From Selenomonas sp. AB3002 (GTDB taxonomy: Bacteria > Bacillota > Negativicutes > Selenomonadales > Selenomonadaceae), in contig NZ_JNIO01000008.1 of assembly GCF_000702545.1 (NCBI RefSeq), positions 496,001-560,000 of the forward strand: a stretch of DNA of 64,000 bases, read 5' to 3'. How positions within the stretch are numbered: the first letter of the stretch is position 1; the number at the start of each line of letters is the position of its first letter. Positions 25,308 through 45,769 of this stretch are shown here, piece by piece. The notes below the pieces were generated by a model. It searched no databases. It saw only the letters and a program-made list of their open reading frames with translations, and was not told the origin of the DNA. The position numbers and the translations under genes are program-made.

Positions 25308-25559
25308 ATGGCAAACACAAACAAAAACGAACCGACGAGGGAACAAATCGAAAAGGTGCTGGCCTGCGAGACAGCCGAGGAACTGATGGCGCTGGTGAAG
25401 GCCAATGGCCACGAAATCACGAAGGAAGAAGCCGAGGCCTGCATGGCGGAGCTGGCTGACATCGAGCTGGACGAGGCCACGCTGCGACAGGTGGCGGGTG
25501 GAAAGGTAACGATCAAAGATATATTAAAGAGTACAACGGCGATCTTGATGTTTCCTTAA
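25308..25559 (+). CDS. Nif11-like RiPP precursor peptide 1
   Basis: AAGGAGGTTTTATC precedes ATG. The 83-residue peptide has a Nif11-type leader (REQIEKVLACETAEELMALV, then ITKEEAEACMAELADIELDE) ending in the double-glycine site QVAGG, and a core KVTIKDILKSTTAILMFP. The core has no Cys or Trp, unlike most others in this locus. The leader should be recognised by the maturation enzymes and cut after Gly-Gly by the C39 transporter encoded at 31655. Confidence 0.85.
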   Translation: MANTNKNEPTREQIEKVLACETAEELMALVKANGHEITKEEAEACMAELADIELDEATLRQVAGGKVTIKDILKSTTAILMFP

Positions 25560-25574
25560 TTAGGAGGTTTTATC

Positions 25575-25805
25575 ATGGCAAAGATCAACGTAAACGAACT
25601 CTCGAGGGAACAAATCGAAAAGGCGATGGCCTGCGAGACAGTAGAGGAACTCATGGCGTTGGCAAAAGCGGAAGGTATTGAATTGACGAAAGAAGAAGCC
25701 GAGGCGTACATGGCGGAGCTGGAAGACTATGAGCTTGATGAGGCTACGATGAAAAATGTGGCTGGTGGACTTCAGGGCATAAAATGTCAAAGCCTGAGAT
25801 ATTGA
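25575..25805 (+). CDS. Nif11-like RiPP precursor peptide 2
   Basis: AGGAGGTTTTATC precedes ATG, and the gene follows precursor 1 after 15 bases. The leader (REQIEKAMACETVEELMALA, LTKEEAEAYMAELEDYELDE) ends in NVAGG, followed by a short core LQGIKCQSLRY with one Cys. The 3' end abuts the tail of another precursor (25801-25857), so this core may be the product of a deletion joining two genes. Confidence 0.85.
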   Translation: MAKINVNELSREQIEKAMACETVEELMALAKAEGIELTKEEAEAYMAELEDYELDEATMKNVAGGLQGIKCQSLRY

Positions 25806-25857: not shown

Positions 25858-27107
25858 TTGATTTTACTGGCCTTTCGCTGGACGGGATGGGCGAACTCTC
25901 GGGCGAGCAGATCTTCATCGACGGGACCAAGATCGAATCCTGCGCCAACAAGTACACCTTCGTATGGAAGAAATCCGTGACGAAGCAGATGGGAAAGCTC
26001 ATGGAAAAGATACCGGACCTGTTCTTCGAGGCTGCGGAAGACTTCGGCGTCCGGCTGGACTTTCCGGACGGGCTCAGGCTCCGCCACATGAAGCGGCTGC
26101 GCCGCAGGCTGAAGGCGTACCAGGAAAGCATGGGCATCGAATTCGTGCACGGGAGCGGGAAACGGAAGACGGCGCTGCAGAGACTGACGGAAAAGCTGGA
26201 CGAAGCGATCCGGCGCATCAAGGACTACACAAAGAAACTCTTCATCGCGGGGAGACGGAACAGCTACTCCAAGACGGACAAGGACGCGACCTTCATGCGG
26301 ATGAAAGAAGACGCCATGAAGAACGGCCAGCTCAAGCCGGCCTACAACATCCAGTGCGGCACGGACTCTGAATTCATCACATGGGCATCGGTCGGTCCCC
26401 AGCCTACAGATACAACCACACTCATTCCTTTCCTTCAGGATATGGAGAAACATCTGCAGCGCCGCTATCCCAATGTGGTTGCGGATGCAGGATACGAAAG
26501 CGAAGAGAACTACCTCTATCTTGAGACCAACGGGCAGCGCGCCTTCATAAAGCCCAGCAATTATGAGAAGAGCAAGACAAGAAAATGGAAAAAGGATATC
26601 GGGCGCAGGGAGAATATGACCTATCTGCCAGAAGAAGATGCCTATTTATGCGCCCAGGGCAGGAAGCTTGCAGCTGCAAAGGAATCCGTACGCAGCAGCC
26701 GGACAGGATTCAAAAGAAATATAACCCTTTACAGTTCCGCGGATTGCGGCAACTGCCCGCTGAAGAGCCAGTGCATACACGGAAACCATTGCAAGACCCC
26801 GCTGGAGGAGAGAACCAAGCACTTTGAAGTATCCAAACAGTTTTTGCGCCAACGTCAGGAAGATTTGGAACGTATAACCTCAAAAGAAGGAGTACAACTG
26901 CGCATAAACCGAAGCATACAGGCAGAAGGTGCATTTGCAATGATGAAGGCGGACATGAATTTCCGAAGGTTCCTGAGCCGCGGCACAGCAAATGTCCTTG
27001 TTGAGATCATGCTGGTGGCTATGGCTTACAATATTCAAAAGCTGCACTGCAAAATCCAGTCAGACAGAGCAGGCCAGCACCTGTTCCCTGTGAATAACGC
27101 AGCCTGA
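25851..27107 (+). pseudogene. IS1182-family transposase, N-terminally truncated
   Basis: The open frame begins after a TAA at 25848 without a normal start and enters the DDE transposase at LDFTGLSLDGMGELSGEQ, then IFIDGTKIESCANKY. The C-terminal DDE region (MKNGQLKPAYNIQCGTDSEF, VVADAGYESEENY) and the zinc-finger-like CGNCPLKSQC are intact, and the end (QHLFPVNNAA) equals that of the complete copy. Loss of the N-terminal helix-turn-helix region should abolish transposition. Confidence 0.8.
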
Positions 27108-31654: not shown

Positions 31655-33859
31655 ATGGGCATAAATTTCTTTCAAAACAAATACCGTACCAAAGTCCCCA
31701 CCGTCCTCCAGATGGAGGCCACGGAGTGCGGCGCGGCATCCCTGGCCATGGTGCTGGCCCATTATGGCAAGTGGCTGCCCCTGGAGAAGCTCAGGCAGGA
31801 CTGCGGTGTGACCAGGGACGGCAGCAACGCCCAGAATATCCTCCGGGCCGCGAAAAATCACGGCTGCACCGCCAAGGGCTTTGCAGGCCGTCCAAACGTA
31901 CTCAGGAAGAAGGAATATCCCCTGATACTCTTCTGGGAATTCAATCATTTTGTGGTGCTGGAGGGCATCAAGGGGGATACGGTGTATCTCAATGACCCAG
32001 CCATGGGGCGGCGCACCGTGGCCTGGGAAGAGTTTGTGGGCTCTTATACCGGCGTCTACCTTGCCATCCGACCAGGCCAGGGCTTCAAAAAAGAAGGGCA
32101 TCGCTACAGCGTGGTGCAGGCAATTGCCGGGAGGCTCAGGGAGGACAACTGGGCAGTGCTCTTTGTGTCCCTTCTGGGGCTGGCCATGATCCTGCCGGGG
32201 CTGGCTGTGCCAGTGCTGAACCAGATTTTTCTCGATGATATTTTCTCCCTGAAGCATGTGGACTGGGTGAATAAATTCATTGGGGCCATGGTCATCACCA
32301 TGGTGCTCCTGGGCATCATGACCACCATGCGATCCATGGTGCTGACCTACTGGCAGAAAAAGCTGACCCTGGCCGATTCTTCTGGCTTCTTCTGGCATGT
32401 CCTGCGCCTGCCCGTGGCCTTTTTCCAGCAGCGTTTCGCGGCAGATGTGGCCTCCCGCATCCAGTATAACGAGATGAATGCCGAGGTGCTGTCGAACCAG
32501 GCCGCCACATCCCTCCTGGATATGCTGGTAGCCGTCTTTTATCTGGGCCTGCTCTTCCAGTACAGCGTGCCTCTGACCCTTATCGGCGTGTCCGTGAGCC
32601 TGGTGAATGTGGGCGTCTTCCTCTATATGCGCCGCCGCCTGACGGATCTCACCATGCGGATGCAGCAAGATACAGGCAAGGCTTACGGCGTCCTGATGAG
32701 CGGCATCATGATGATTGAGAGCATCAAGGCCAATGGCAGCGAAAGCGATCTCTTCAATAAATGGGCAGGCTATCGGGCCAAAGTCCTGATGGCGACTCAG
32801 GAGCGGGATATGTGGTCACTCAAAGTGAAGCTCCTGCCCAGCATCCTTGTGGGGGTGAACAGCGCCATCATCATGACGGTGGGGGGCTTCTCCATCATGG
32901 AAGGGGTCATGACCGCCGGCATCTATACGGCGGTGAACACCCTGCTCGCGAAATTCCAGGAGCCCATGCAGAAGCTCCTCACCTTCGGTGCCACCCTCCA
33001 GAACACGGAAATGCAGATGCAGCGTCTGGATGATGTGCGGCGCTACCAAATCGACCAGCTGAATTATCCCGATGAAGGTCAGCAGATAACCTTCAAGGGC
33101 ACCCGCCTCTCCGGGGAGCTTACGCTGCAGGACGTGTCCTTCGGCTACAGCCCTTTGGATCCACCCCTGCTGGAGCATTTCAACCTGCACCTCTTGCCCG
33201 GTCGCTGGGCGGCGGTGGTAGGCTCCTCCGGCAGTGGCAAATCCACCCTGGCCAAGCTCACGGCGGGACTGTATGAGGAGTGGTCGGGGCAGGTGCGCTT
33301 TGACGGGGTGCCGCGCCGGGAGATTCCCCGGGCTGTGATTGTGAACTCCATCTCCACGGTGGATCAGGACATTTTCCAGATCGAGGGCACCATACGGGAA
33401 AACATCTCCCTCTTTGACAGCGGCCTGCCCAAGGCTGACATCATACAGGCGGCCCGGGATGCCTGCATCGAGGAGGATATCCTGCGCCTCCAGGGTGGCT
33501 ACGAGGCGAAGGTTTCCGAGGGAGGTCTGAACTTCTCCGGGGGTCAGCGGCAGCGCATGGAGATTGCCCGGGCCCTGGCCACGAATCCCTCCCTGCTGAT
33601 ATTGGACGAGGCCACCAGTGCTATCGACCCCATGACGGAGCAGAAAATCCTGGAGAACATCAGGAGACGGGGCTGTTCCTGCCTCATCGTGGCCCATCGC
33701 CTTTCCACCATCCGGGACACGGATGAAATCATCGTGCTGGAGCATGGCAAGGTGGCGGAGCGGGGCACCCACAGGGAGCTTATGCAGCATGAGGGGGCTT
33801 ACCGCCGCCTGATTGAGGAACGGGAACAGGAAGATACAGGCGAGCCGACACTGGACTAA
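31655..33859 (+). CDS. NHLM-type ABC transporter with C39 leader peptidase
   Basis: The transporter cuts the leader after Gly-Gly and exports the core. The N-terminal C39 peptidase has its catalytic Cys in TECGAASLAMVLAHYGKW (C25), His in FNHFVVLEG (H98) and Asp in YLNDPAMG (D114). Six membrane segments follow (about 160-430). The nucleotide-binding domain has GSSGSGKSTLAKL, the signature NFSGGQRQRMEIARAL and Walker B LLILDEATSAID. All catalytic residues are present. Its substrates should be the Nif11-like precursors, which end their leaders in AGG. Confidence 0.92.
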   Translation: MGINFFQNKYRTKVPTVLQMEATECGAASLAMVLAHYGKWLPLEKLRQDCGVTRDGSNAQNILRAAKNHGCTAKGFAGRPNVLRKKEYPLILFWEFNHFVVLEGIKGDTVYLNDPAMGRRTVAWEEFVGSYTGVYLAIRPGQGFKKEGHRYSVVQAIAGRLREDNWAVLFVSLLGLAMILPGLAVPVLNQIFLDDIFSLKHVDWVNKFIGAMVITMVLLGIMTTMRSMVLTYWQKKLTLADSSGFFWHVLRLPVAFFQQRFAADVASRIQYNEMNAEVLSNQAATSLLDMLVAVFYLGLLFQYSVPLTLIGVSVSLVNVGVFLYMRRRLTDLTMRMQQDTGKAYGVLMSGIMMIESIKANGSESDLFNKWAGYRAKVLMATQERDMWSLKVKLLPSILVGVNSAIIMTVGGFSIMEGVMTAGIYTAVNTLLAKFQEPMQKLLTFGATLQNTEMQMQRLDDVRRYQIDQLNYPDEGQQITFKGTRLSGELTLQDVSFGYSPLDPPLLEHFNLHLLPGRWAAVVGSSGSGKSTLAKLTAGLYEEWSGQVRFDGVPRREIPRAVIVNSISTVDQDIFQIEGTIRENISLFDSGLPKADIIQAARDACIEEDILRLQGGYEAKVSEGGLNFSGGQRQRMEIARALATNPSLLILDEATSAIDPMTEQKILENIRRRGCSCLIVAHRLSTIRDTDEIIVLEHGKVAERGTHRELMQHEGAYRRLIEEREQEDTGEPTLD

Positions 33860-33865
33860 AAGAAG

Positions 33866-36595
33866 GTGAGAATATTGATAAATCTTGTTGCGGGAGAGCG
33901 TTTCCGCCTGCCGGATGAGCCGAAGCTTTGGCGGGTGGCGGCGGGGAAGGTGGAAGTCTACGCCGTTACCCGCAAAAACATTTCTTTTCGGCAAATATTT
34001 TTGACAGAACTCAGTACAGGGGAAGCAGCCTTTCCGCCCCTGGACGAATTTGGGGAAATCGACTTCCTGCTCTATGGGGCAGAAGATACCTCGCTAGAAG
34101 AAATTCCCTTTGATAATATGACGGCAGAGGAACTTCATCCCCTAATGAAAGTGTGGTTTTCACATCTGCTGCTGCTCTCCTGGGTGCGCCTGATGGCCGA
34201 CCGGGGCGACGAGATACTGAAAACCTGGTCTGATGGCTCGGTGCTATCCGGCAAGGAGCATAACCACGGAGAACTCATCGAGGACTTTGAGGAAAACGAA
34301 AGCATCTTTTCCATGCTGCTGGGCACCCGCTTCCAGGCTCAGGACGAGCTGCTCTCCCAGAGGATGGAACGCCGCGCCCAAAAAGAGCGACGTATTGTGG
34401 ATGAGACCATAGCCGACCTCCTGGATGAAGAAGTAGTGCCGGAGGCGGAGGAGAGCGGCAGCGTCAAGTTCGAAACGGCGGTGTTTCTGGTGCGTGCCGC
34501 CGCCAAAGCCCTGGGCATGTCGGCGGCGGACATCCACATCGCGCCGGAAATGGTCCAAAGGCTGGATCAGCTTTCCCTTATCCGCCGTTTGACGAAAAAG
34601 GGGGGCATGGAACTGCGGCTGGTGAAATTGCAGAAAGACTGGCACACCGGCGACAGCGGCGTGATGATCGGCTACTATGGTGACAAGGCTGAGCCTGTGC
34701 TGCTGAAGCCAGTCACGCCGGAAAGCTACCTGCTCGTCACTCGGGAAAATCCCGGCGGCATTCCCGTCACGGAGGAAGTGGCCGCCCGCCTTTCCCAGGA
34801 TGCCATGCTTTTCTACGCGGGACTGCCCGCCAGGGTCCTCTCCCGCCTTGACCTCTTTAAATTCATGCTGCGCCAGAACTGGCGCACGGATGCCAAGACC
34901 ATCGTAGCCGTGAGCCTTTTGGCGGGGCTGATTCCCATCATCACCCCGATTATCACTGAGACCATGTTCTCGGACATCATCCCCATTCTCGACCGCAAGG
35001 GGCTGGCCACTGTCACCCAGGTGGCCATGGTGGCAGGCTTCACCACGGCGGCCCTCACAGCGGTGCGCTCCGTGGCCATCCTGCGCTTTGCCCAGAAGGG
35101 GAGCATGGCGGCGGAGGCGGCGATGCTCTCAAGGCTCCTCTCCCTGCCCGTGGGCTTTTTCCGTAAGCTTTCCTCGGGGGAGATGGTAGCGCGGGTGACG
35201 GGGCTGTCCCTGATACAGACCTTTTTGACCGGAGAAACCGTGGGAGTCATCTTTTCCTTTCTCTGCTCCTTTTGGAGCCTGGGCCTCATGTGCTGGTACA
35301 GCCTGAAGCTCACCGCCGTGGCGGTGGCAGTGTGGCTGGTGTATCTCCTCCTCAGCTTCCTCATCCTGTCAAAGCTCGTCAGGGCGGAGCGGCTCAAGAC
35401 CACCGCCACCAACCAGACCTCCGGCATCCTGGCCCAGATCTTCACGGGGCTGGTGAAATTCCGGGTGAAGGGGGCGGAGTCCCAGGCCTACCGGCTCTGG
35501 GGGAGAAAATTCGCCGAGGAATGGCGGGCAAACTATGCAGCCCGCTGGCAGAAAAACTACGGCACCATCCTGGCCGCCGTGCAGCCCATCCTGCTTGCTC
35601 TGCTCGTTTACTATGTGGCACTGAAGGAACTGGCTGCCGGGTCGGGCAGTACGGCGGCCGGGGCGGCGGCAAGCCTTTTCGCCGCTGATGAGCCTATGAC
35701 GGTGGCGAAGTTCCTCGCCTTCCAGTCCGCCTATACGGCCTTCAATACCTCCCTTGCCGCCGTGATTCCCGTGATCGAGCAGATGTCCGTCATCCTTCCC
35801 CTGCTGGAGAATCTGAAGCCAATCCTTGAAACCGCACCGGAGAGCGGCGAGGAAAAGGTGGAGGCCGATGTGCTCTCCGGGGCACTGGAGGTGAAGAACC
35901 TGACTTTCGCCTACCGGGAGGATACCCCCAATGTCTTAAATGATGTGAGCTTTCGCATTGCGGCGGGGGAACACGTGGCCATCGTGGGCAGATCCGGCTG
36001 CGGAAAGTCCACCCTCATCCGCCTCCTCTTGGGCTTTGAATCCCCTAAAAGCGGCGCGGTGTATTACGACGGGCAGGATCTTTCTGAGCTGGATCTCCCT
36101 TCGGTGCGCTGCCAGCTGGGGGTGGTGCTGCAGAATGGCCAGCTCATGACTGGGGACATCTTCCACAACATCATCGGTACCAACGACCTCACCCTGGACG
36201 ATGCCTGGGCAGCGGCAGAGGCGGCGGGGGTGGCAGATGATATCCGCGAGATGCCCATGCAGATGAATACGGTGGTCAGCGAGGGCAGCACGAATATTTC
36301 CGGCGGGCAGCGCCAGCGCATCCTGATTGCCAGGGCCCTGGCCATGAAGCCTGCCATCATCATCTGCGACGAGGCCACCAGCGCCCTGGACAACCGCACC
36401 CAGGCCATCGTGACCAAGAGCCTGGATCGCCTGAAAACCACCCGCATCGTAGTAGCCCACCGTCTCTCCACCATTCGCCACGCCGACCGCATCATCGTCT
36501 TGGAGGGCGGCCGCATCGCCGAAAGCGGCACCTTCGAGGAGCTGACGGCAAAGGGCGGGCTGTTCGCTTCCTTCGTGAAGCGGCAGGTGGCATGA
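33866..36595 (+). CDS. NHLM-type ABC transporter without peptidase (second exporter subunit)
   Basis: The 909-residue protein has a long N-terminal soluble region (about 1-330) that is not a C39 peptidase (no ECG or NHF motif), a membrane domain of six segments (about 345-640) and a nucleotide-binding domain with GRSGCGKSTLIRL, ISGGQRQRILIARAL and IIICDEATSALD. This layout is that of the second NHLM bacteriocin ABC protein, normally encoded beside the C39 transporter. The start is GTG 33866 or TTG 33875. The role of the N-terminal region is unknown. Confidence 0.88.
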   Translation: MRILINLVAGERFRLPDEPKLWRVAAGKVEVYAVTRKNISFRQIFLTELSTGEAAFPPLDEFGEIDFLLYGAEDTSLEEIPFDNMTAEELHPLMKVWFSHLLLLSWVRLMADRGDEILKTWSDGSVLSGKEHNHGELIEDFEENESIFSMLLGTRFQAQDELLSQRMERRAQKERRIVDETIADLLDEEVVPEAEESGSVKFETAVFLVRAAAKALGMSAADIHIAPEMVQRLDQLSLIRRLTKKGGMELRLVKLQKDWHTGDSGVMIGYYGDKAEPVLLKPVTPESYLLVTRENPGGIPVTEEVAARLSQDAMLFYAGLPARVLSRLDLFKFMLRQNWRTDAKTIVAVSLLAGLIPIITPIITETMFSDIIPILDRKGLATVTQVAMVAGFTTAALTAVRSVAILRFAQKGSMAAEAAMLSRLLSLPVGFFRKLSSGEMVARVTGLSLIQTFLTGETVGVIFSFLCSFWSLGLMCWYSLKLTAVAVAVWLVYLLLSFLILSKLVRAERLKTTATNQTSGILAQIFTGLVKFRVKGAESQAYRLWGRKFAEEWRANYAARWQKNYGTILAAVQPILLALLVYYVALKELAAGSGSTAAGAAASLFAADEPMTVAKFLAFQSAYTAFNTSLAAVIPVIEQMSVILPLLENLKPILETAPESGEEKVEADVLSGALEVKNLTFAYREDTPNVLNDVSFRIAAGEHVAIVGRSGCGKSTLIRLLLGFESPKSGAVYYDGQDLSELDLPSVRCQLGVVLQNGQLMTGDIFHNIIGTNDLTLDDAWAAAEAAGVADDIREMPMQMNTVVSEGSTNISGGQRQRILIARALAMKPAIIICDEATSALDNRTQAIVTKSLDRLKTTRIVVAHRLSTIRHADRIIVLEGGRIAESGTFEELTAKGGLFASFVKRQVA

Positions 36596-37612: not shown

Positions 37613-37801
37613 ATGGCAAAATTCGACATGAAGGAATTGACGAAGGAGCAAATCCAGAAGCTGGTGGCCTGCGAAACCGCTGAGGAGCTGATGGCGGCGG
37701 GGGGCGGTTTTTCGAACTGGACGGGTTGTTTGTCTGGTGAAAAAAACACAATGAAGGAGGAATTTTGGTGGGAGCAACACTATGAGAATAAGCACCTATG
37801 A
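37613..37801 (+). CDS. Short-leader Nif11-like precursor peptide
   Basis: ATG at 37613 encodes MAKFDMKELTKEQIQKLVAC and ETAEELMA, the first helix of the Nif11 leader, which then joins directly to AGGG and FSNWTGCLSGEKN. The middle of the leader (the EEAEAY...ELDE helix) is absent. The core holds two early motif residues, Trp and Cys, and the tail overlaps the start of the radical SAM gene. DNA for the first helix is nearly identical to that of the second short-leader gene at 39387. Confidence 0.7.
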   Translation: MAKFDMKELTKEQIQKLVACETAEELMAAGGGFSNWTGCLSGEKNTMKEEFWWEQHYENKHL

Positions 37802-39368
37802 AATCATTTTGCCACTGGTGGAGGGCGAAAAAAAAATCGAGGATAAAGCCCTGCTGGTGAACGGCCTCTATTTCTCCTTTGACGTGGTGGCAAAGGAGGA
37901 GGCAGACAAATTCGTGGCAGGGGACTTCGCCGCTCTCCCCATCGCCCTGCGGGAGTGGCTGCTCGGGAGGGGGCATCTCACGCGCAAGAGCGAGGCGGAG
38001 GAAATCGCCGACATGAAGCTCCTTGGCCGTATCCATCGCATGATTCCGGCCCGGGCAGGTCTGGGCGTTGTCATCATACCCACCTACGACTGCAATTTCC
38101 GCTGTCCCTATTGCTTCGAGCAGCACCGCCTCAAAAAGGGGCAGGAGTGGCTCTCAAGCACCATGAGCCATGAAATGGTGGAGGCGGTATTTGCCGCCAT
38201 TGAGAGCTACAAAGCCAGGGGGTACTCCCTGGGGTACTGCACCCTCTACGGCGGGGAGCCATTCCTGGCGGAAAACATCCATGTCCTGCGGGAAATCGCC
38301 GGGCACGCCAAAAAGCTGGGCCTCACATTGGACGCCATCACCAACGGCTATGACCTGGAGGCCTACCTGGACTTTATGGAGGAGTACGACTGCAAGCAGC
38401 TGCAGGTGACGGTGGACGGCGTAGGGGAGGTCAATGACCGGCGGCGCATCCACAAGGAGGGCCTGCCCACCTATGACCGTATTTTAAGCAATGTAGAGCT
38501 GGCCCTGCAACGGGGCATATCCATCAGCCTGAGGGTGAATGTGGGGCGCGAAAACATTTCCGGCATGGGGGCGCTTATCGAAGACCTGCGGGGGCGGGGC
38601 TTCATGGACAGGGAAAAAGAGCGTGTCGCCGAGGAGGAAAAATTGCGGGAAACCGGCGGGAAGCCTGAGCGGGGGAGATTTTCCTATTATTTCAAGGCCA
38701 CCAACAATGACCGGCATCCCGAAAACAATATCACTGAGCAGGACATCATTGACGAACTGATGAAAAACGGCTTCACCGCCATGGAAGCCATCGGGCTGCA
38801 GAGCCAGTACAGCGGCCCGGAGCAGGTGCTCGGGCAGATTTTTGCGAAGAAAGCGCTGCCACAGCCCTCTCCCACATTTTGCGGCTCGGAGGCGGGGATG
38901 CTGGTCATCGACCCCTTTGGCAAGCTCTATCCCTGCTGGGATGTCGTGGCGAAGGAGGACACTGCCGTGGGCTTCACCGATGAGCAGTCCGGGCGTTTCC
39001 TGATGAGCCTCACGAAGGCTAAGTGGCGCACCCGCACCTCGGATATCCTGCCCGCCTGCCAGTCTTGCCCCTACGTCTTCATCTGCCGGGGCGGCTGCGC
39101 CTCCCGGGCTTTCGCAGAGCACGGGAGCTATTTCCGGGAGCACTGCGGCGAGGCAAAGGAAATCTTCGCCTTTGTGGCCTCCAGGGTGGCCGGGGAGGCA
39201 TGGGCGAAGAACCATGAGAGCGAGCTTTCCCTCTCCCTGGCAGGACCCCTCTCGCGCCTGACAGAGGCGGAGCGCAAAACCCTCACGGAGTCCCGCAGCC
39301 AGAAGGAAATCTTCACTTGCCTCAAGGCGGCGGGGCTGTGGGGGGAGAGTGAGCAAGAAAATTCATGA
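37782..39368 (+). CDS. Radical SAM/SPASM RiPP maturase
   Basis: The enzyme should install a radical-derived crosslink or thioether in the precursors. An N-terminal domain (1-90) resembles the leader-binding part of such maturases. The radical SAM cluster motif is YDCNFRCPYCFEQ (C104, C108, C111), followed by LYGGEPFL. The C-terminal SPASM domain starts at about 367 (CGSEAGMLVIDPFGKLYPCW) and has ACQSCPYVFICRGGCASRAF for auxiliary iron-sulfur clusters. ATG at 37782 overlaps the tail of the precursor gene. It is flanked by short-leader precursors on both sides. Confidence 0.9.
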   Translation: MRISTYEIILPLVEGEKKIEDKALLVNGLYFSFDVVAKEEADKFVAGDFAALPIALREWLLGRGHLTRKSEAEEIADMKLLGRIHRMIPARAGLGVVIIPTYDCNFRCPYCFEQHRLKKGQEWLSSTMSHEMVEAVFAAIESYKARGYSLGYCTLYGGEPFLAENIHVLREIAGHAKKLGLTLDAITNGYDLEAYLDFMEEYDCKQLQVTVDGVGEVNDRRRIHKEGLPTYDRILSNVELALQRGISISLRVNVGRENISGMGALIEDLRGRGFMDREKERVAEEEKLRETGGKPERGRFSYYFKATNNDRHPENNITEQDIIDELMKNGFTAMEAIGLQSQYSGPEQVLGQIFAKKALPQPSPTFCGSEAGMLVIDPFGKLYPCWDVVAKEDTAVGFTDEQSGRFLMSLTKAKWRTRTSDILPACQSCPYVFICRGGCASRAFAEHGSYFREHCGEAKEIFAFVASRVAGEAWAKNHESELSLSLAGPLSRLTEAERKTLTESRSQKEIFTCLKAAGLWGESEQENS

Positions 39369-39386: not shown

Positions 39387-39572
39387 ATGGCAAACATCAA
39401 CATGAAAGAACTGACGAAGGAGCAAATCCAGAAGCTGGTGGCCTGCGAAACCGCTGAGGAGCTGCTGGCGGCGACGAAGGCCGAGGGGCTGAAAAATGCG
39501 GCGGGTGGTCGGATGCCTCCGTGCCCAAAACACCGCCCCTGTAGCGAACGAGAATGGTTTGCGGGCTGGTGA
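39387..39572 (+). CDS. Second short-leader Nif11-like precursor, Cys/Trp-containing core
   Basis: The leader (MANINMKELTKEQIQKLVAC, ETAEELLAATKAEGLKN) lacks the second helix but keeps a double-glycine site (AAGG). The core RMPPCPKHRPCSEREWFAGW has two Cys and two Trp, a good substrate for a radical SAM/SPASM enzyme. ATG at 39387 matches the start of the other precursors; GTG at 39378 is in frame. It lies 18 bases after the maturase stop. Confidence 0.75.
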   Translation: MANINMKELTKEQIQKLVACETAEELLAATKAEGLKNAAGGRMPPCPKHRPCSEREWFAGW

Positions 39573-39618: not shown

Positions 39619-39640
39619 CACTTATTTGAGGGTTTATTTT

Positions 39641-41494
39641 ATGAATGTACAGGAACTTCCGGCCAAAGCATTTCTCTCCCATCTGCGCCGGCACCCAATC
39701 CCTGAGATTATGGACGAAGCGTGTGAGGCCGCCTTGTCCGCCGTTCTAAAAGAATACGGCGACACCATTACTCACGGTGCGGGACTTGAGGTGCGCCTGG
39801 GGGAGGAGGCGCGGTATGTTGACTATATCATGGCCATAGACCATGACGATATTCCCCATATTCATTTCCTGTGGTTCGAGCTTGATTACGGGGAAATCAG
39901 GAAGGCCCAGGAGACAGGAACGAAGATCACGCCCTGCCTGTTTGCCAACACAGATTTTGGCGAGGGCAGCAGGGAGAAATGGGATGAGTTTCTGCCGGCT
40001 TTCTTGGGCGAGGAGCGGGCCAGGTGCCTGCGCCCCGCCTTTGACCGGGTGCTTAGGAACTTGCCCGAGGGGGCGTACCCCAAGCAGGTGGGCACCATGA
40101 CTGGCCGGGGGGAACTCCACATTATGCGTTTGGTGATTTTGTTCCCCGACTGGGACTCTATCCCCGAAGGGCTTGTCGCCATCGGCTGGCAGGGGGATCC
40201 CGATGCCCTCAGGAAGGCGCTCCTGCCCTGGCGGGAGACGAATAGCATTGCCGTGAATATCGACCTGGGGGAAAAGGGGGTACTGCCGAAAATCGGCATC
40301 GAAGTCTTTTCCCGCTGGCGGCATCCACTGATTGTGGATAAAGCCATCGCCAGGCTGGAAGCGGCGGGGCTGTGCCTGCCCTCCAAGGCCGAGGCCCTGC
40401 GCCGCTGGATCCGCATCCGCCCGGATGGCGACCCCTTCATACAGACACTGATTGCTTATTTCAAGCTGAACTACAAGGACGGGGAAATCACCGAGGCGAA
40501 AGCCTACCTTGAGCAGTCGCCCTATATACACCACCATTATTTTGATGCCTATGAAAGACCAGTCTATGTGGAAATCATGGTGAAGGATAAGCAGCATACC
40601 CTCCCCATAGGCACGGCCCTGCAATGGCTCTATGAGTGTGAGGCAAACCGGGTGGGGCAGGTGCGTATCACCGGGGATGTGACGAAATACAGACACCTTG
40701 ACCGTATTCTGGAGGAATGCAAAGTCCAGAGCTGTGACGAAGGGAAGAAAATCCGCGCCGTGGTGGAGCTTGCCGGGGGAGCGTCGGCGGCGTGGCTGGA
40801 AAAGGCCATAGAGGCGGGGGCGGACAGTTTTATCATTGACATCCAGGGAGATGATGATGATAAAGCTGTTCTGACGCTGAAAAATCTCCGTGACATTGGA
40901 GTTAAGAAGGTGGTGGCAAGATGGCTGATGCACTCCGGCAACGCCGATAAACTTCTGAAGGTGATACAATGCACGGAAGAATTAGGCCTTAGGGAATTGA
41001 TTGTTACCGGCATGAAACCGGGGCAGGAGGTTAAAGCACCGACCCGCGAACAGCTGACGCAGGCGGCGGCAATAATAAAAAAATGGCGGTCAGGGCATCA
41101 TGTTGGGGAAGGCAGAGAAGAATCTGCCGAGCTTCCGGTTGGGCAGGAGATAATGGAACTGACGGTTGACAGTTGCTTTTCCCAGCTACGTGCTTTTATG
41201 GAGGGGCGCGACCCCAAAAAAAACGGAAACCGGGGCATAGAGCGAGGCTGCACGGCGGGACGGGACCACTTCTGCCTCCTGCCCTCGGGCAAGGTCACGC
41301 CCTGCCTGTATTTGAACTGCCTGGAGGAATGGGGCAGCCTGGCCACGTATTGGGAGGAGTCACCTGCCCTGAAAAAGCTGCGGGATAACAGCGGCTGTGC
41401 TGAAGGATGCAAGGCTTGTGTCTACAGGCGGCGCTGCTTGCCCTGTCCGGCAGTGCAGGAGAAAATCGCATTCTGCCCCGTCAGGGCAGAATGA
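39641..41494 (+). CDS. SPASM protein with a radical-SAM-like barrel lacking the CX3CX2C motif
   Basis: ATG at 39641 follows GAGGG. Residues 1-280 form an unrecognised domain (GLEVRLGEEARYVDYIMAID, LHIMRLVILFPDWDSIP). About 300-500 reads like a TIM barrel in the style of radical SAM enzymes (RPVYVEIMVKDK, QVRITGDVTKYRHLDRILEE, AGADSFIIDIQGDDDDK, LRELIVTGMKP), but the position of the cluster Cys motif holds none. The C terminus is a Cys-rich SPASM domain (FCLLPSGKVTPCLYLNC, GCKACVYRRRCLPCPA). It may bind the leader or act as the partner of the catalytic maturase. Confidence 0.7.
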   Translation: MNVQELPAKAFLSHLRRHPIPEIMDEACEAALSAVLKEYGDTITHGAGLEVRLGEEARYVDYIMAIDHDDIPHIHFLWFELDYGEIRKAQETGTKITPCLFANTDFGEGSREKWDEFLPAFLGEERARCLRPAFDRVLRNLPEGAYPKQVGTMTGRGELHIMRLVILFPDWDSIPEGLVAIGWQGDPDALRKALLPWRETNSIAVNIDLGEKGVLPKIGIEVFSRWRHPLIVDKAIARLEAAGLCLPSKAEALRRWIRIRPDGDPFIQTLIAYFKLNYKDGEITEAKAYLEQSPYIHHHYFDAYERPVYVEIMVKDKQHTLPIGTALQWLYECEANRVGQVRITGDVTKYRHLDRILEECKVQSCDEGKKIRAVVELAGGASAAWLEKAIEAGADSFIIDIQGDDDDKAVLTLKNLRDIGVKKVVARWLMHSGNADKLLKVIQCTEELGLRELIVTGMKPGQEVKAPTREQLTQAAAIIKKWRSGHHVGEGREESAELPVGQEIMELTVDSCFSQLRAFMEGRDPKKNGNRGIERGCTAGRDHFCLLPSGKVTPCLYLNCLEEWGSLATYWEESPALKKLRDNSGCAEGCKACVYRRRCLPCPAVQEKIAFCPVRAE

Positions 41495-41522: not shown

Positions 41523-41744
41523 ATGGCAAACATCAATCTGAAGGACCTGACAAAAGAGCAAATTGAGAAGGCAATGGTTTGCGAGACCGCCGAAGAACTG
41601 ATGGCGGCAGCGAAGGCCGAGGGGGTTGAGCTGACCCGGGAGGAAGCAGAGGCGTATTTGGCGAGGACAGCTGAATGCGAGCTGGACGAGACAACGTTGA
41701 AGAGTGTGGCTGGGGGTGGGGGTGGTATCCATGTCTGGCACTAA
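41523..41744 (+). CDS. Nif11-like precursor with Trp/His core
   Basis: AAGGAGTAATTTACC precedes ATG. The full-length leader (TKEQIEKAMVCETAEELMAA, LTREEAEAYLARTAECELDE) ends in SVAGG, followed by the short core GGGIHVWH. The core is among the shortest in the locus and has Trp between two His. It directly follows the SPASM gene. Confidence 0.85.
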   Translation: MANINLKDLTKEQIEKAMVCETAEELMAAAKAEGVELTREEAEAYLARTAECELDETTLKSVAGGGGGIHVWH

Positions 41745-41891: not shown

Positions 41892-42227
41892 ATGTCAGAA
41901 GAATTCACATACGCAACTTCCGAAGGCCCTAATGGCTGGACTATTTGGCAGGTAATTGGCCGGATTGATGTGTCCACCGCTGATGAAGCCTATGCCAGTG
42001 GTGAGGAAATCGTGAAAGGCAATGAGAAAATTGCCATTGACTTGTCCACGCTTGAGTATATCTCCAGCGCAGGACTACGGGTGATCCTGCGCCTCAATAA
42101 ACTGGCCAAGAAATCCGGACACAAGCTCACCGTCTGCGGTGCGTATGGCATGGTGAAATCAGTCCTGAAGGACAGTGGCATGGATGTGCTCCTGGCGGCG
42201 AAGGAATCTTTGGACGAGCTTTCCTGA
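41892..42227 (+). CDS. STAS-domain anti-sigma factor antagonist
   Basis: The protein is a single STAS domain: VIGRIDVSTADEAYASGEEI, then IAIDLSTLEYISSAGLRVIL with the phosphorylatable Ser in ISSAGLR, and GMVKSVLKDSGMDVLLAAKE. AAAGGAGAGATTTTC precedes ATG. In partner switching it binds the RsbW-like kinase when unphosphorylated. The kinase and phosphatase are the next two genes. Confidence 0.88.
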   Translation: MSEEFTYATSEGPNGWTIWQVIGRIDVSTADEAYASGEEIVKGNEKIAIDLSTLEYISSAGLRVILRLNKLAKKSGHKLTVCGAYGMVKSVLKDSGMDVLLAAKESLDELS

Positions 42228-42242
42228 CGGGGGGAGGGGAAC

Positions 42243-42704
42243 ATGATGACAAATCCCGGCATGGCAGCACAAACTGTCAGCCAGACTGACGGAAACTGGC
42301 GGCGCTATGATGCCGAACTGAAATTTTATGAGCACATCAAGAATGATATCCTGCGGGAGGCCGAGGCTGCGGGCATGTCCCCGCAGCAGGAATTCAGGCT
42401 GGAGCTTGGCATTGAGGAAATAGCGGTCAATATCATCAGATATGCTTACAAAGACCCCGGCTATATGTTTGTACGGACTGATTCCGACGGTGGGAACTTC
42501 CGTCTGGAGTTCGTAGATCACGGTTTTCCTTTTGACCCCCTGGCCCAAAAGATGAAGCATGGGGAGGTACCTACAGATGACCAAGATGAGGGAGGCTACG
42601 GCATTTTCCTGGTGAAAAAGAATTTTTCCTCCGTTGTATACCGGCATGAGGAAATGTTCGATGCCATGGCCAATCATCTTATCATGGAGCTGCCTTTGTC
42701 ATAA
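42243..42704 (+). CDS. RsbW-like anti-sigma kinase (HATPase_c_2)
   Basis: The protein is a small GHKL ATP-binding domain with the N box ELGIEEIAVNIIRYAY, the G1 motif FVDHGFPFDP and the later GGYGIFLVKKNF. GGGGAGGGGAAC precedes the start. It should phosphorylate the STAS protein encoded just upstream. The gap between the two genes is 15 bases. Its other partner could be the ECF sigma factor at 36636 or another regulator. Confidence 0.85.
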   Translation: MMTNPGMAAQTVSQTDGNWRRYDAELKFYEHIKNDILREAEAAGMSPQQEFRLELGIEEIAVNIIRYAYKDPGYMFVRTDSDGGNFRLEFVDHGFPFDPLAQKMKHGEVPTDDQDEGGYGIFLVKKNFSSVVYRHEEMFDAMANHLIMELPLS

Positions 42705-42757
42705 GTGCCGGCAGCAGTTCCCAAGGGGTAATCACGGTTTCTTTGAGGAAATTGAAT

Positions 42758-44956
42758 ATGAATAGCTTGACAGAAAAAATCGTAACAAGACTCAATAAAA
42801 TGCAAATCCGACAAAGAATGATGTTTATCGTAATTTCCACAAGTGTAATCAGCTTGGTTGTATTGTCGTTGATAACCCTGTTCAGTACCTTTGGCATAAG
42901 GGACATGGCGATAGAAAGCGGTCAAAAGATCGGCAAGCAGGCTTCAAATGACAGCTCAGAAATATTAAGAGAGCAAAAGGAACATGAATTATTAGCTACT
43001 GCTAAAGATCGTGCCGATTTTATCAATTACATGATGAAGGATCTTGGGCGCAATACCCAGCGAATAGCAAAAGTAGCGACAACAATGCTGCAGCGCCCCA
43101 ATGAATATGCAGCGGAGCCTTTGTTTTATCCGGATCAAATCAAATTAGAGGGATTAGTTACTTATTTGCAGTATGCCGATCCCGGAAAAGAGGTAAATCC
43201 GGAAGAAGTAGAAAGGCTCTCAAGCATACAAAAAGTAATGGTGCAGACCATAGAATATAACCCCATGATAAGCGAAGCATGCCTAGCATCAAAAGCAGGT
43301 TTTGAAATCAGCGCACAGGATTTCAATCAATTTGATAATAGTACGGGCAAGAGCTGGTCAATGCCACGGTATTTCAATTATTTCAAATTAGACTGGTATA
43401 AAAATGCTTTGCAAGCAGGGGAGGTTGTGTTTTCAGACGCACGCATGAATGCGTTGGATGGCTTCGGAAATATCGTTTTTCATTACTCTGCACCCTACTA
43501 TGACGCAAGGGGAGAGATAGCTGGAGTAATAGAGTGTGAAGAAAATATTGGTACGGTAAACAAAGTCGTTTACGAAGCCGATACACAGGAAATGGGATTT
43601 TATTTTGTAGTTGATAAAAATGGGCATGTGTTACTGGATAATTCAAACAGCAATACGGCTGATGATGAATTGGCAGTGACAATGAAAGATTTAAGAGAAA
43701 GTGCAAATGAGGACCTGGCGGAACTTGCAAAAGCAATGACAGCCGGAGAAACAGGATTGAAGCAAGTAACCATTAACGGAGCAGAACATTATGTAGCCTA
43801 TGCGCCGGTAACAGACGTTAACTGGTCATGCGCAGAAGCGATAAGTGTTGATGAAGTTTTGGGGCCGGTAGAGAAAAATGACAAAATCATAAAAGATATA
43901 GCGGCTGAAAATGTTGATGTGATGAATGCCCACATAAAAAATACCATACTGATGATGGCATTCATTATTTTTGCGTTGCTGACCGTAGTGATATATATAG
44001 GCCGCAGGTTGTCCGATCGTTTTGTAAGACCGATAAGGGAACTGTCGGACGGTGTGCGCGAAATCACCAGCGGCAACTTTGACAAGAAACTTGAGATAAC
44101 GACGGGGGATGAAATCGAGCATTTGGCAATCTGCTTCAATGCTATGACGGATGAACTCAAGGCGTACATCGATAACCTGTCCCGGGTGACGGCAGAGAAG
44201 GAAAAAGCCGCCGCCGAGCTAAACATTGCGAGAAATATCCAGGTGGGGGCGCTGCCCCAGGATTTTATGACAGACCGGGAAGAATTTCAAATCTATGCGA
44301 CCATGGATGCCGCCAAGGGTGTGGGCGGCGACTTTTACGACTTCTACATGACGGATGAGAACCATCTGGTGGTGACCATTGCCGATGTGTCCGGCAAGGG
44401 CGTGCCGGCGGCGCTGTTCATGATGCGGGCCAAAACGACACTGAAGAATCTGGTGCTCATGGTGGGTAGCCCCGATGATTTCGGCGCTGTCATGACCCTG
44501 GCCAATCAGGAACTGTGCCGGGACAACGAGACCATGATGTTCGTCACGGTATTTATCGCCCAGCTGGATTTGGTTACGGGCGAGCTTATCTATGTGAGCG
44601 CCGGACATAACGCTCCTTGCCTGCGTGAAAATGGCAAGTTCCGCTATCTGACGCAAAAGAAAAATCGCATGATGCTGGGGGTGGAGGAGGATGTCATGTA
44701 TGAAGCCTATCGCCTCACCCTCCGTCCCGATGATATGCTCTTTCTCTACACGGATGGCGTGACGGAGGCCATGGACAAGGAAAAGAATCTCTATTCGGAG
44801 GAGCGGCTGGAAGAAACATTGAATAACATCGATGGCAGCCTCTCCGTGGAGGAAATCCTGGCAGAAGTGCGAAAGGATATAGAAGTTTATGCAGAGGGCG
44901 CAGAGCAATCTGATGACATTACCATGCTGGGAGTGAGATTTCTGGGCAAAAAATAG
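42758..44956 (+). CDS. Cache-HAMP-SpoIIE sensor phosphatase
   Basis: An N-terminal membrane span (MMFIVISTSVISLVVLSLIT) is followed by a large extracellular Cache-type sensor (about 50-385; YYDARGEIAGVIECEENIGT, MGFYFVVDKNGHVLLDNSNS), a second span (ILMMAFIIFALLTVVIYIG), HAMP (VREITSGNFDKKLEI) and a C-terminal PP2C/SpoIIE phosphatase (VGGDFYDFYMTDENHLVVTI, ADVSGKGVPAALFMMRAKT, LFLYTDGVTEAMD). It should dephosphorylate the STAS protein on an outside signal. The sensor half is visibly AT-richer than the phosphatase half. Confidence 0.9.
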   Translation: MNSLTEKIVTRLNKMQIRQRMMFIVISTSVISLVVLSLITLFSTFGIRDMAIESGQKIGKQASNDSSEILREQKEHELLATAKDRADFINYMMKDLGRNTQRIAKVATTMLQRPNEYAAEPLFYPDQIKLEGLVTYLQYADPGKEVNPEEVERLSSIQKVMVQTIEYNPMISEACLASKAGFEISAQDFNQFDNSTGKSWSMPRYFNYFKLDWYKNALQAGEVVFSDARMNALDGFGNIVFHYSAPYYDARGEIAGVIECEENIGTVNKVVYEADTQEMGFYFVVDKNGHVLLDNSNSNTADDELAVTMKDLRESANEDLAELAKAMTAGETGLKQVTINGAEHYVAYAPVTDVNWSCAEAISVDEVLGPVEKNDKIIKDIAAENVDVMNAHIKNTILMMAFIIFALLTVVIYIGRRLSDRFVRPIRELSDGVREITSGNFDKKLEITTGDEIEHLAICFNAMTDELKAYIDNLSRVTAEKEKAAAELNIARNIQVGALPQDFMTDREEFQIYATMDAAKGVGGDFYDFYMTDENHLVVTIADVSGKGVPAALFMMRAKTTLKNLVLMVGSPDDFGAVMTLANQELCRDNETMMFVTVFIAQLDLVTGELIYVSAGHNAPCLRENGKFRYLTQKKNRMMLGVEEDVMYEAYRLTLRPDDMLFLYTDGVTEAMDKEKNLYSEERLEETLNNIDGSLSVEEILAEVRKDIEVYAEGAEQSDDITMLGVRFLGKK

Positions 44957-45523: not shown

Positions 45524-45769
45524 ATGTCAATTAACAAAAATGAAGTCACAATGGAAATGATTAAAAAGGCGATGGACTGCGAGACAGTAGAGGAACTCAT
45601 GGCGCTGGCGAAAGCGGAAGGTATTGAACTGACGAAGGAAGAAGCTGAATCATATTTGGCGGAGCTGGAAGACTTCGAGTTGGACGGTGATATGCTGAAA
45701 CGGGCAGCGGGTGGTGGCGGCTACGCTGACCTCTGCTGGAGCAACACTAAGCCGATATTAACGCAGTGA
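45524..45769 (+). CDS. Nif11-like precursor with Cys-Trp core
   Basis: The start at 45524 follows AGAGGGGGTACTGAA. The leader (TMEMIKKAMDCETVEELMAL, LTKEEAESYLAELEDFELDG) ends in RAAGG, followed by the core GGYADLCWSNTKPILTQ. It is the last gene of the RiPP locus, and the upstream 130 bases are AT-rich and may hold a separate promoter. Confidence 0.85.
   Translation: MSINKNEVTMEMIKKAMDCETVEELMALAKAEGIELTKEEAESYLAELEDFELDGDMLKRAAGGGGYADLCWSNTKPILTQ

Follow-up and report, generated by a model that had tools for sequence, protein, structure and literature searches.

The gene at 39641-41494 in a 64,000-nucleotide stretch of Selenomonas sp. AB3002 DNA (the window, whose numbering is used below) encodes a protein of 617 residues, counted from the ATG at 39641; a TTG at 39626 is a possible alternative start. 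The protein is predicted to contain an N-terminal ABBA prenyltransferase barrel, a radical S-adenosylmethionine (SAM) barrel that has lost its cluster-binding loop, and a C-terminal SPASM domain. We read it, with a probability of about two in three, as a putative prenyltransferase that tailors ribosomally synthesized and post-translationally modified peptides (RiPPs) with Nif11-type leaders and is fused to a dead radical SAM/SPASM half. This reading draws support from the folds of both halves, the excision of the loop, the ancestry of the C-terminal half, the retention of SPASM cysteines and charged barrel residues, a switch of selective constraint, and co-occurrence with the radical SAM enzyme encoded next to it. 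Other genes of the window are named by their first position, the neighboring enzyme being 37782.

Two AlphaFold2 models underlie the prenyltransferase assignment. The model of the whole protein (alignment of 11 sequences; predicted local distance difference test, pLDDT, 74.3; predicted TM score, pTM, 0.58) presents the N-terminal region as repeated strand/helix pairs. In VIA-align, residues 1-297 of this model superpose on MpnD (4yl7) with Z 16.8 and a root-mean-square deviation (rmsd) of 4.0 over 270 aligned residues, and on the other indole prenyltransferases 6-DMATS, CymD, and FgaPT2 with Z 16.4, 16.2, and 15.7. Residues 1-306 modeled alone reach pTM 0.76 and pLDDT 71.8. Prenyltransferases make up all of the 50 best Foldseek rows and all of the 50 best VIA rows for this second model, including rows named AmbP3, which we take to be prenyltransferases as well; the VIA scores are Z 16.5 for MpnD (4yla, 274 aligned residues), 15.7 for CymD, and 15.5 for FgaPT2. 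Because both models match ABBA prenyltransferases, residues 1-300 are strongly predicted to adopt the PT-barrel fold, although a fold by itself is no proof of activity.

ABBA prenyltransferase barrels have an acidic base plus a set of basic and tyrosine residues that bind the diphosphate. In our alignment, E80, D82, R156, R163, D208, K217, and Y289 are invariant in all 36 fused rows, E50 is kept in all 34 rows that reach its position, and K275 and K287 are replaced only in L135, by Arg. E50, E80, D82, R156, R163, and D208 are also common to four free-standing relatives in a comparison of 18 rows in all, in which row L121 ends early and from which L055 is omitted, its reading frame breaking off. 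The conserved E50, R163, K217, K275, K287, and Y289 sit on strands of the model and are candidates for such a set.

The C-terminal half retains the architecture of a radical SAM/SPASM maturase. Residues 303-613 of the model superpose on PqqE (6c8v) with Z 22.8 and an rmsd of 3.4 Å over 268 aligned residues, the partial TIM-barrel fold being present, and the C-terminal half superposes on SuiB with Z 22.4. In addition, a profile of 11 homologs matches SuiB (5v1q) at E 2.2e-5 over profile positions 324-586 of 603. Pfam Radical_SAM (PF04055) aligns with residues 318-450 from its profile position 25 (E 7.9e-4, 20.1 bits, below the 29.5 cut-off). A match that starts so late and stays below the cut-off would be expected if the cluster-binding loop is gone. 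Pfam SPASM (PF13186) covers residues 537-593 (E 0.022, 15.5 bits, below the 21.5 cut-off). These observations agree with an earlier sequence-only reading of this DNA, which had proposed a radical-SAM-like barrel with a SPASM domain and without the cluster cysteines. Neither of the two outcomes that would have spoken against that proposal occurred: the barrel is present, and the loop is excised where the SAM motif should lie.

The loss of the loop is seen at one place of the alignment. A gap of 13-15 residues lies there in 30 of the 36 fused rows, the window protein included, while the six intact relatives carry CPL[RHN]CPQC exactly where the other rows are gapped; the absence of the SAM motif is therefore beyond chance. 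The GGE motif of the window protein's barrel is lost as well, and the radical SAM half is very probably non-catalytic. In contrast, every fused row except L125, which lacks one, retains all eight SPASM cysteines (35 of 36 fused rows, 29 of 30 dead rows). The sequence-only reading had stated that there is no CX3CX2C, which holds for the place of the SAM cluster and not for the protein as a whole, since one literal string, C586-AEG-C590-KA-C593, stands within the SPASM domain. C586 is present in the window protein alone among 11 aligned rows, and C590 and C593 belong to the SPASM set, so we reject this string as a SAM-cluster motif, the loop being excised at the motif's own place. We likewise reject the view that a frameshift or an assembly error produced this form, as it is open in 29 other rows, two of which (L119 and L123) have frames shortened at the N-terminus.

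Relatives of the protein occur in three arrangements: the prenyltransferase domain free-standing (L054, L055, L129, L130, and L131), fused with an intact motif (the six rows L047, L053, and L132-L135, the last four in the window protein's own family), and fused with a gap at the motif (the 30 dead rows). A 31-row tree of the C-terminal half includes 18 of the 30 dead forms and places all 18 on one side of a branch with support 100/100. Their sister group consists of the four intact rows from the window protein's family (96/97); L047, L053, and the separate radical SAM rows branch more distantly, toward the NirJ2 outgroup. An earlier tree of 23 rows, made without L132-L135, agrees; both trees omit the truncated L036, L041, L045, and L046 and the duplicate L043. 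From these sequences, the loop loss looks like a single event within an intact lineage. Both forms occur in genome G652, the intact one as L135 and the dead one as L103 and L136. In G003, of the same genus as the window, the prenyltransferase domain stands alone, with no trace of a C-terminal half in a 17.5-kb stretch.

Selective constraint differs between the two forms. In six dead pairs the nonsynonymous distance (dN) of the barrel exceeds that of the prenyltransferase domain by a factor of 1.80-4.48, with all bootstrap intervals above 1 (lowest 1.02). By contrast, the factor is 0.49-0.72 in four intact pairs, where three intervals lie below 1 and one reaches 1.01. These ten pairs were chosen by hand, and several share members and are not independent. 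A second set of eight pairs includes seven dead ones, in which the ratio of dN to synonymous distance (dN/dS) ranges over 0.05-0.26 in the prenyltransferase domain and 0.26-0.53 in the barrel, the barrel having the larger value in 7/7. We rely on the dN ratio instead of dN/dS because several pairs approach saturation at synonymous sites. Dead barrels show indels besides their high dN. As far as substitutions tell, the constraint is reversed between the halves after motif loss, and the dead barrel is relaxed and not free, since its dN/dS stays below 1.

The window-type domain also co-occurs with the 37782-type enzyme. Among 380 genomes of the class, a 37782 homolog at E <= 1e-60 is found in 27 of the 30 genomes with the window-type domain versus 8 of the 350 others (G001, G591, G598, G606, G610, G647, G648, and G654), in counts that ignore kinship and genome incompleteness. 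The domain profile itself is matched in 38 of the 380 genomes; the 30 counted as window-type exclude the intact-only G057, G587, G590, and G591 and the free-standing-only G493, G494, G534, and G697. Among the 30, the C-terminal half is unread in G508, G511, and G580, and G003 is the genome with the prenyltransferase domain alone. At the same threshold the 37782 type is absent from 4/4 free-standing-only genomes and from 3/4 intact-only genomes (G057, G587, and G590), and no close homolog is present in G203, G316, and G086, which lie outside the class (best E 4e-23). A smaller earlier genome set gave the 37782 type in 12/13, with G003 among them and G450 as the exception. In G455 (L035 7175-7850), a 37782-type gene lies beside a dead form in pieces, and another copy is present elsewhere in the genome.

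The precursor peptides point to an aromatic acceptor. In intact-fusion clusters, Trp is the last residue of 29 of 31 distinct precursors, compared with 0/9 control Nif11 precursors from genomes without a domain-profile match. Trp or Tyr occurs in 49 of 52 cores at dead-form/37782-type loci and in 5 of 9 control cores; several of the former start with GGW, and Cys adjoins Trp or Tyr 24 times against a shuffled mean of 15.8 (7 of 1000 shuffles as high). For the precursor lists, repeats sharing the last 25-30 residues were dropped and open reading frames (ORFs) over 200-220 residues excluded; for the core comparison, identical cores and any core matching the end of a longer one were dropped, and two of the 52 cores (L061) are cut inside the leader by the splitting rule. 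In L130, a free-standing domain lies beside two NHLP-like precursors whose sole Trp/Tyr/Phe residue is a Trp right after GG. Judged from these cores, the likeliest acceptor is Trp, otherwise Tyr.

In the reading we favor, the N-terminal ABBA barrel would transfer an isoprenoid from an allylic diphosphate to Trp, or else Tyr, in the cores of the adjoining precursors; here we infer the transfer, the acceptor, and the length of the prenyl group alike. The prenyltransferase would have become fused to a functional radical SAM/SPASM maturase, the ancestor of the present C-terminal half, and a single excision would have removed the SAM-cluster loop of that half. Radical chemistry in dead-form clusters would then be left to the separate 37782-type enzyme, itself presumed active. 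The dead barrel and the SPASM domain, probably with two auxiliary [4Fe-4S] clusters, would be retained as a scaffold or docking module. The kept SPASM cysteines may serve as a scaffold, in positioning the peptide, or in electron exchange.

Several observations weigh against this reading. Both models are of moderate confidence (pLDDT 74.3 with 11 aligned rows and 71.8 with 9), and residues 259-267 and 294-305 fall below pLDDT 50 in the whole-protein model. No Pfam or NCBIfam prenyltransferase family is found at E up to 10 for five members, a test limited by the HMMER filters, and residues 1-306 of the window protein have no match to any family of the two collections at that threshold. The domain profile run against PDB sequences finds no prenyltransferase either, its best row being a bromodomain at E 0.51. 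The sequence-only reading, which had let about 280 N-terminal residues match nothing, thus stands for sequence profiles and falls for the fold. The Trp_DMAT profile (PF11991) matched 0/299 genomes of the phylum, a result that is uninformative because no control genome gave a match. As to the acceptor, four of six precursors of G134, G170, and G207, three genomes without a domain-profile match, also end in Trp. The C-terminal Trp therefore belongs to a wider precursor type and may serve another enzyme, and its value as proof of the acceptor is weakened. Moreover, three of the 52 cores, one of them 25308 of the window, contain neither Trp nor Tyr, and the candidate acceptor is placed differently in the two forms, at the C-terminus with intact fusions and often near Cys with dead ones. 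The dead barrel, with its dN/dS below 1, is also not devoid of function. With respect to the 37782 type, G512, G644, and G651 have the window-type domain without a close homolog, and G591 carries a homolog along with the intact form, so a strict rule that the intact form excludes the 37782 type is not borne out. In Succiniclasticum ruminis DSM 9236 (L034), the gene lies directly 3' of the exporter, and the 17.8-kb stretch that contains it shows neither a radical SAM gene nor a precursor; the 37782-type genes of this genome are on other contigs.

A related and tentative possibility is that the protein is a bifunctional maturase whose radical half was silenced by one loop excision and reused. 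Two kept auxiliary clusters would then hold a Cys-containing core in place to be prenylated, or would pass electrons to and from the 37782 enzyme, and the dead radical SAM domain would serve the prenyltransferase as a redox or docking module. Rather unlikely is a variant of the favored reading, judged on its own, in which the dead half is decaying and will be lost, so that only the prenyltransferase matters. The high dN and the indels of the dead barrel, together with G003, which is entirely without the C-terminal half, fit such decay. It is opposed by the eight cysteines kept in 29/30 dead rows, by frames that stay open across the C-terminal half in 30 dead rows, and by a barrel dN/dS below 1.

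The sequence-only reading had suggested a non-catalytic partner that presents the peptide or carries auxiliary clusters. On such a view, the protein would present the precursor to the 37782 enzyme, and the prenyltransferase barrel would be a mere peptide-binding shell. We regard this as unlikely. The radical half is indeed dead, the co-occurrence with the 37782 type is strong, and the activity of the prenyltransferase half is a prediction. However, the charged barrel residues are invariant in fused and free-standing copies, and the domain occurs without the 37782 type in the free-standing-only genomes, in most intact-only ones, and in the three genomes outside the class. The idea of a non-catalytic part thus keeps its place for the C-terminal half only: because the N-terminal 300 residues, a predicted prenyltransferase barrel, are the most constrained part, the protein is probably an enzyme and not a pure presenter.

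Still less probable is a redox partner, a prenyltransferase and electron carrier in one, whose SPASM half would relay electrons through two auxiliary clusters to the radical cluster of 37782. Eight cysteines complete in 35/36 rows while the surrounding domain drifts, and the co-occurrence of the two genes, would suit such a relay. A precedent is electron transfer between the unrelated radical SAM proteins PapB and QueE through an auxiliary cluster, as reported in PMC10470005; according to the same paper, PapB requires no specific activator, which speaks against the relay. Intact relatives keep the same cysteines, so their retention can be structural. In addition, G003 has the 37782 type with the prenyltransferase half only, and G512, G644, and G651 have the domain without a close 37782 homolog. 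A cryptic radical SAM enzyme with an unusual cysteine set that still binds a SAM cluster is hardly credible: odd cluster motifs occur in a few radical SAM proteins and C586-C590-C593 spells CX3CX2C, but C586 is found in 1/11 rows beside two SPASM cysteines, the loop is excised in 30/30 dead rows, and GGE is lost.

The favored reading, a RiPP prenyltransferase fused to a dead maturase, resembles known systems in part. Residues 1-300 share the PT barrel with MpnD, CymD, and FgaPT2 of the ABBA/DMATS type (Z 15-17). Unlike these enzymes, the domain has no profile-detectable sequence relation to them, is fused to a radical SAM/SPASM half, and lies in a RiPP cluster. The C-terminal half resembles PqqE and SuiB in superposing on them (Z 22-23) and in its SPASM cysteines, and differs from both in the excised SAM-cluster loop and the prenyltransferase domain at the N-terminus. 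Families TIGR04150 and TIGR04347 are alike by name, being radical SAM relatives filed as pseudo-rSAM and pseudo-SAM: the window protein scores 10.4 bits against TIGR04150 (cut-off 250), and TIGR04347 is not listed for it at E up to 1 in the NCBIfam search. We know of no prenyltransferase fusion in either family, and a full-text literature search for the term "pseudo-rSAM" returned no paper. MppC, an abba prenyltransferase, depends on a Nif11-type leader and geranylates Trp (PMC12715784). Its action on Trp of a Nif11-leader RiPP is the role we predict here. MppC differs in being described beside a lanthionine synthetase, in a cyanobacterium, and without a radical SAM half (PMC12715784). PMC13290415 describes NctPC as a bifunctional prenyltransferase-cyclase that prenylates a peptide Trp. 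NctPC is likewise a peptide prenyltransferase fused to a second domain, a catalytic one and in its case a terpene-type cyclase and not a radical SAM domain. Full-text literature searches, which most subscription papers lie outside, returned no prenyltransferase/radical SAM fusion.

If this reading is correct, the domain would represent a new prenyltransferase family, unrecognized by Pfam and NCBIfam profiles, and its fusion to a radical SAM protein in RiPP biosynthesis is undescribed as far as those searches show. The intact and dead forms, both present in G652, offer a natural before/after pair for the role of SPASM clusters without SAM chemistry. As a single query, the N-terminal domain of the window protein is found in at least 4 of 398 genomes of the phylum, its own genome included; a search of a plasmid collection gave no match. 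The named relatives come mostly from rumen samples, with reticulum and duodenum among the other sources, and lipidated peptides would accordingly be predicted from ruminant-gut Bacillota.

Table 1 Domains of the 39641-41494 protein and genes of the surrounding RiPP cluster
Feature	Position	Strand	Basis
617-residue protein: predicted ABBA prenyltransferase domain, radical SAM barrel without cluster loop, SPASM	39641..41494	+	
Residues 1-300, predicted PT-barrel (ABBA) prenyltransferase domain	39641..40540	+	AlphaFold2 models, fold searches, conservation
Residues 305-505, radical-SAM-like barrel; CX3CX2C loop (~14 residues) excised between 317 and 318	40553..41155	+	
Residues 506-617, SPASM domain: C512, C537, C555, C590, C593, C599, C602, C612	41156..41491	+	
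Radical SAM/SPASM RiPP maturase, motif intact (CNFRCPYC)	37782..39368	+	NF038107 CefB / TIGR04463 nearest in NCBIfam, below cut-off
Short Nif11-like precursor, core GFSNWTGCLSGEKNTMKEEFWWEQHYENKHL	37613..37801	+	Leader profile; no NCBIfam match
Nif11-like precursor, core RMPPCPKHRPCSEREWFAGW	39387..39572	+	Leader profile; no NCBIfam match
Nif11-like precursor, core GGGIHVWH	41523..41744	+	TIGR03798 E 9.6e-6, below curated cut-off
Nif11-like precursor, core GGYADLCWSNTKPILTQ	45524..45769	+	TIGR03798 E 1.5e-5, below cut-off; start inferred, ORF from 45338
Nif11-like precursor, core KVTIKDILKSTTAILMFP, without Trp or Tyr	25308..25559	+	Leader profile
Nif11-like precursor, core LQGIKCQSLRY	25575..25805	+	Leader profile
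Putative ABC exporter, N-terminal peptidase-like region	31655..33859	+	By eye, inference
NHLP-type bacteriocin export ABC transporter	33866..36595	+	TIGR03797 736.5 bits, cut-off 709.4

The gene is embedded in a RiPP cluster (Table 1). By sequence, its neighbor 37782 is a normal radical SAM/SPASM enzyme and the gene stands between the precursors 39387 and 41523, both as the sequence-only reading had it. Nif11-like precursors were called with a purpose-built leader profile; TIGR03798 gives 25.8 bits for 41523 and 25.1 for 45524 against a cut-off of 32.3, and a double-Gly boundary is present in all four of 37613, 39387, 41523, and 45524. Immediately 3' of the cluster, at 41892-44956, lie a STAS protein (PF01740), an ATPase-like small protein, and a sensor with a PP2C-like end, the last two called by eye; L029 has a similar gene downstream. 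A transposase-like ORF (25887-27107, by eye) separates the precursors 25308 and 25575 from the exporter genes.

Among the relatives, L133 (2416-5412) has eight tandem precursors, each ending in a basic segment and Trp, beside an intact prenyltransferase/radical SAM fusion. L130 (7148-15008) also contains an amine-oxidase-like gene and two large genes that by eye resemble B12-binding radical SAM enzymes, and the product of this cluster is possibly a prenylated, methylated proteusin. The diverged free-standing domains of L129 (9207-10307) and L131 (3890-5014) have no RiPP precursor in their stretches of 13.5 and 7.9 kb, and these enzymes may prenylate some other substrate. L054 (6293-9971), L055 (1962-7458), and L097 (8537-14901) represent a related cluster type with radical SAM genes bearing CPLRCPQC; L054 and L055 carry a free-standing prenyltransferase domain, which the profile search did not detect in the genome of L097. 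Besides a DUF7005 gene, L055 contains one of peptide-arginase-like type (NF052474, E 2e-83, 280 bits, below the 350 cut-off), and the genes of L097 look similar by eye. At L055 4924-6239, the free-standing prenyltransferase frame breaks off before its final strands and the adjoining ORF opens with similar strand sequence, the break being either a broken gene or a sequencing error.

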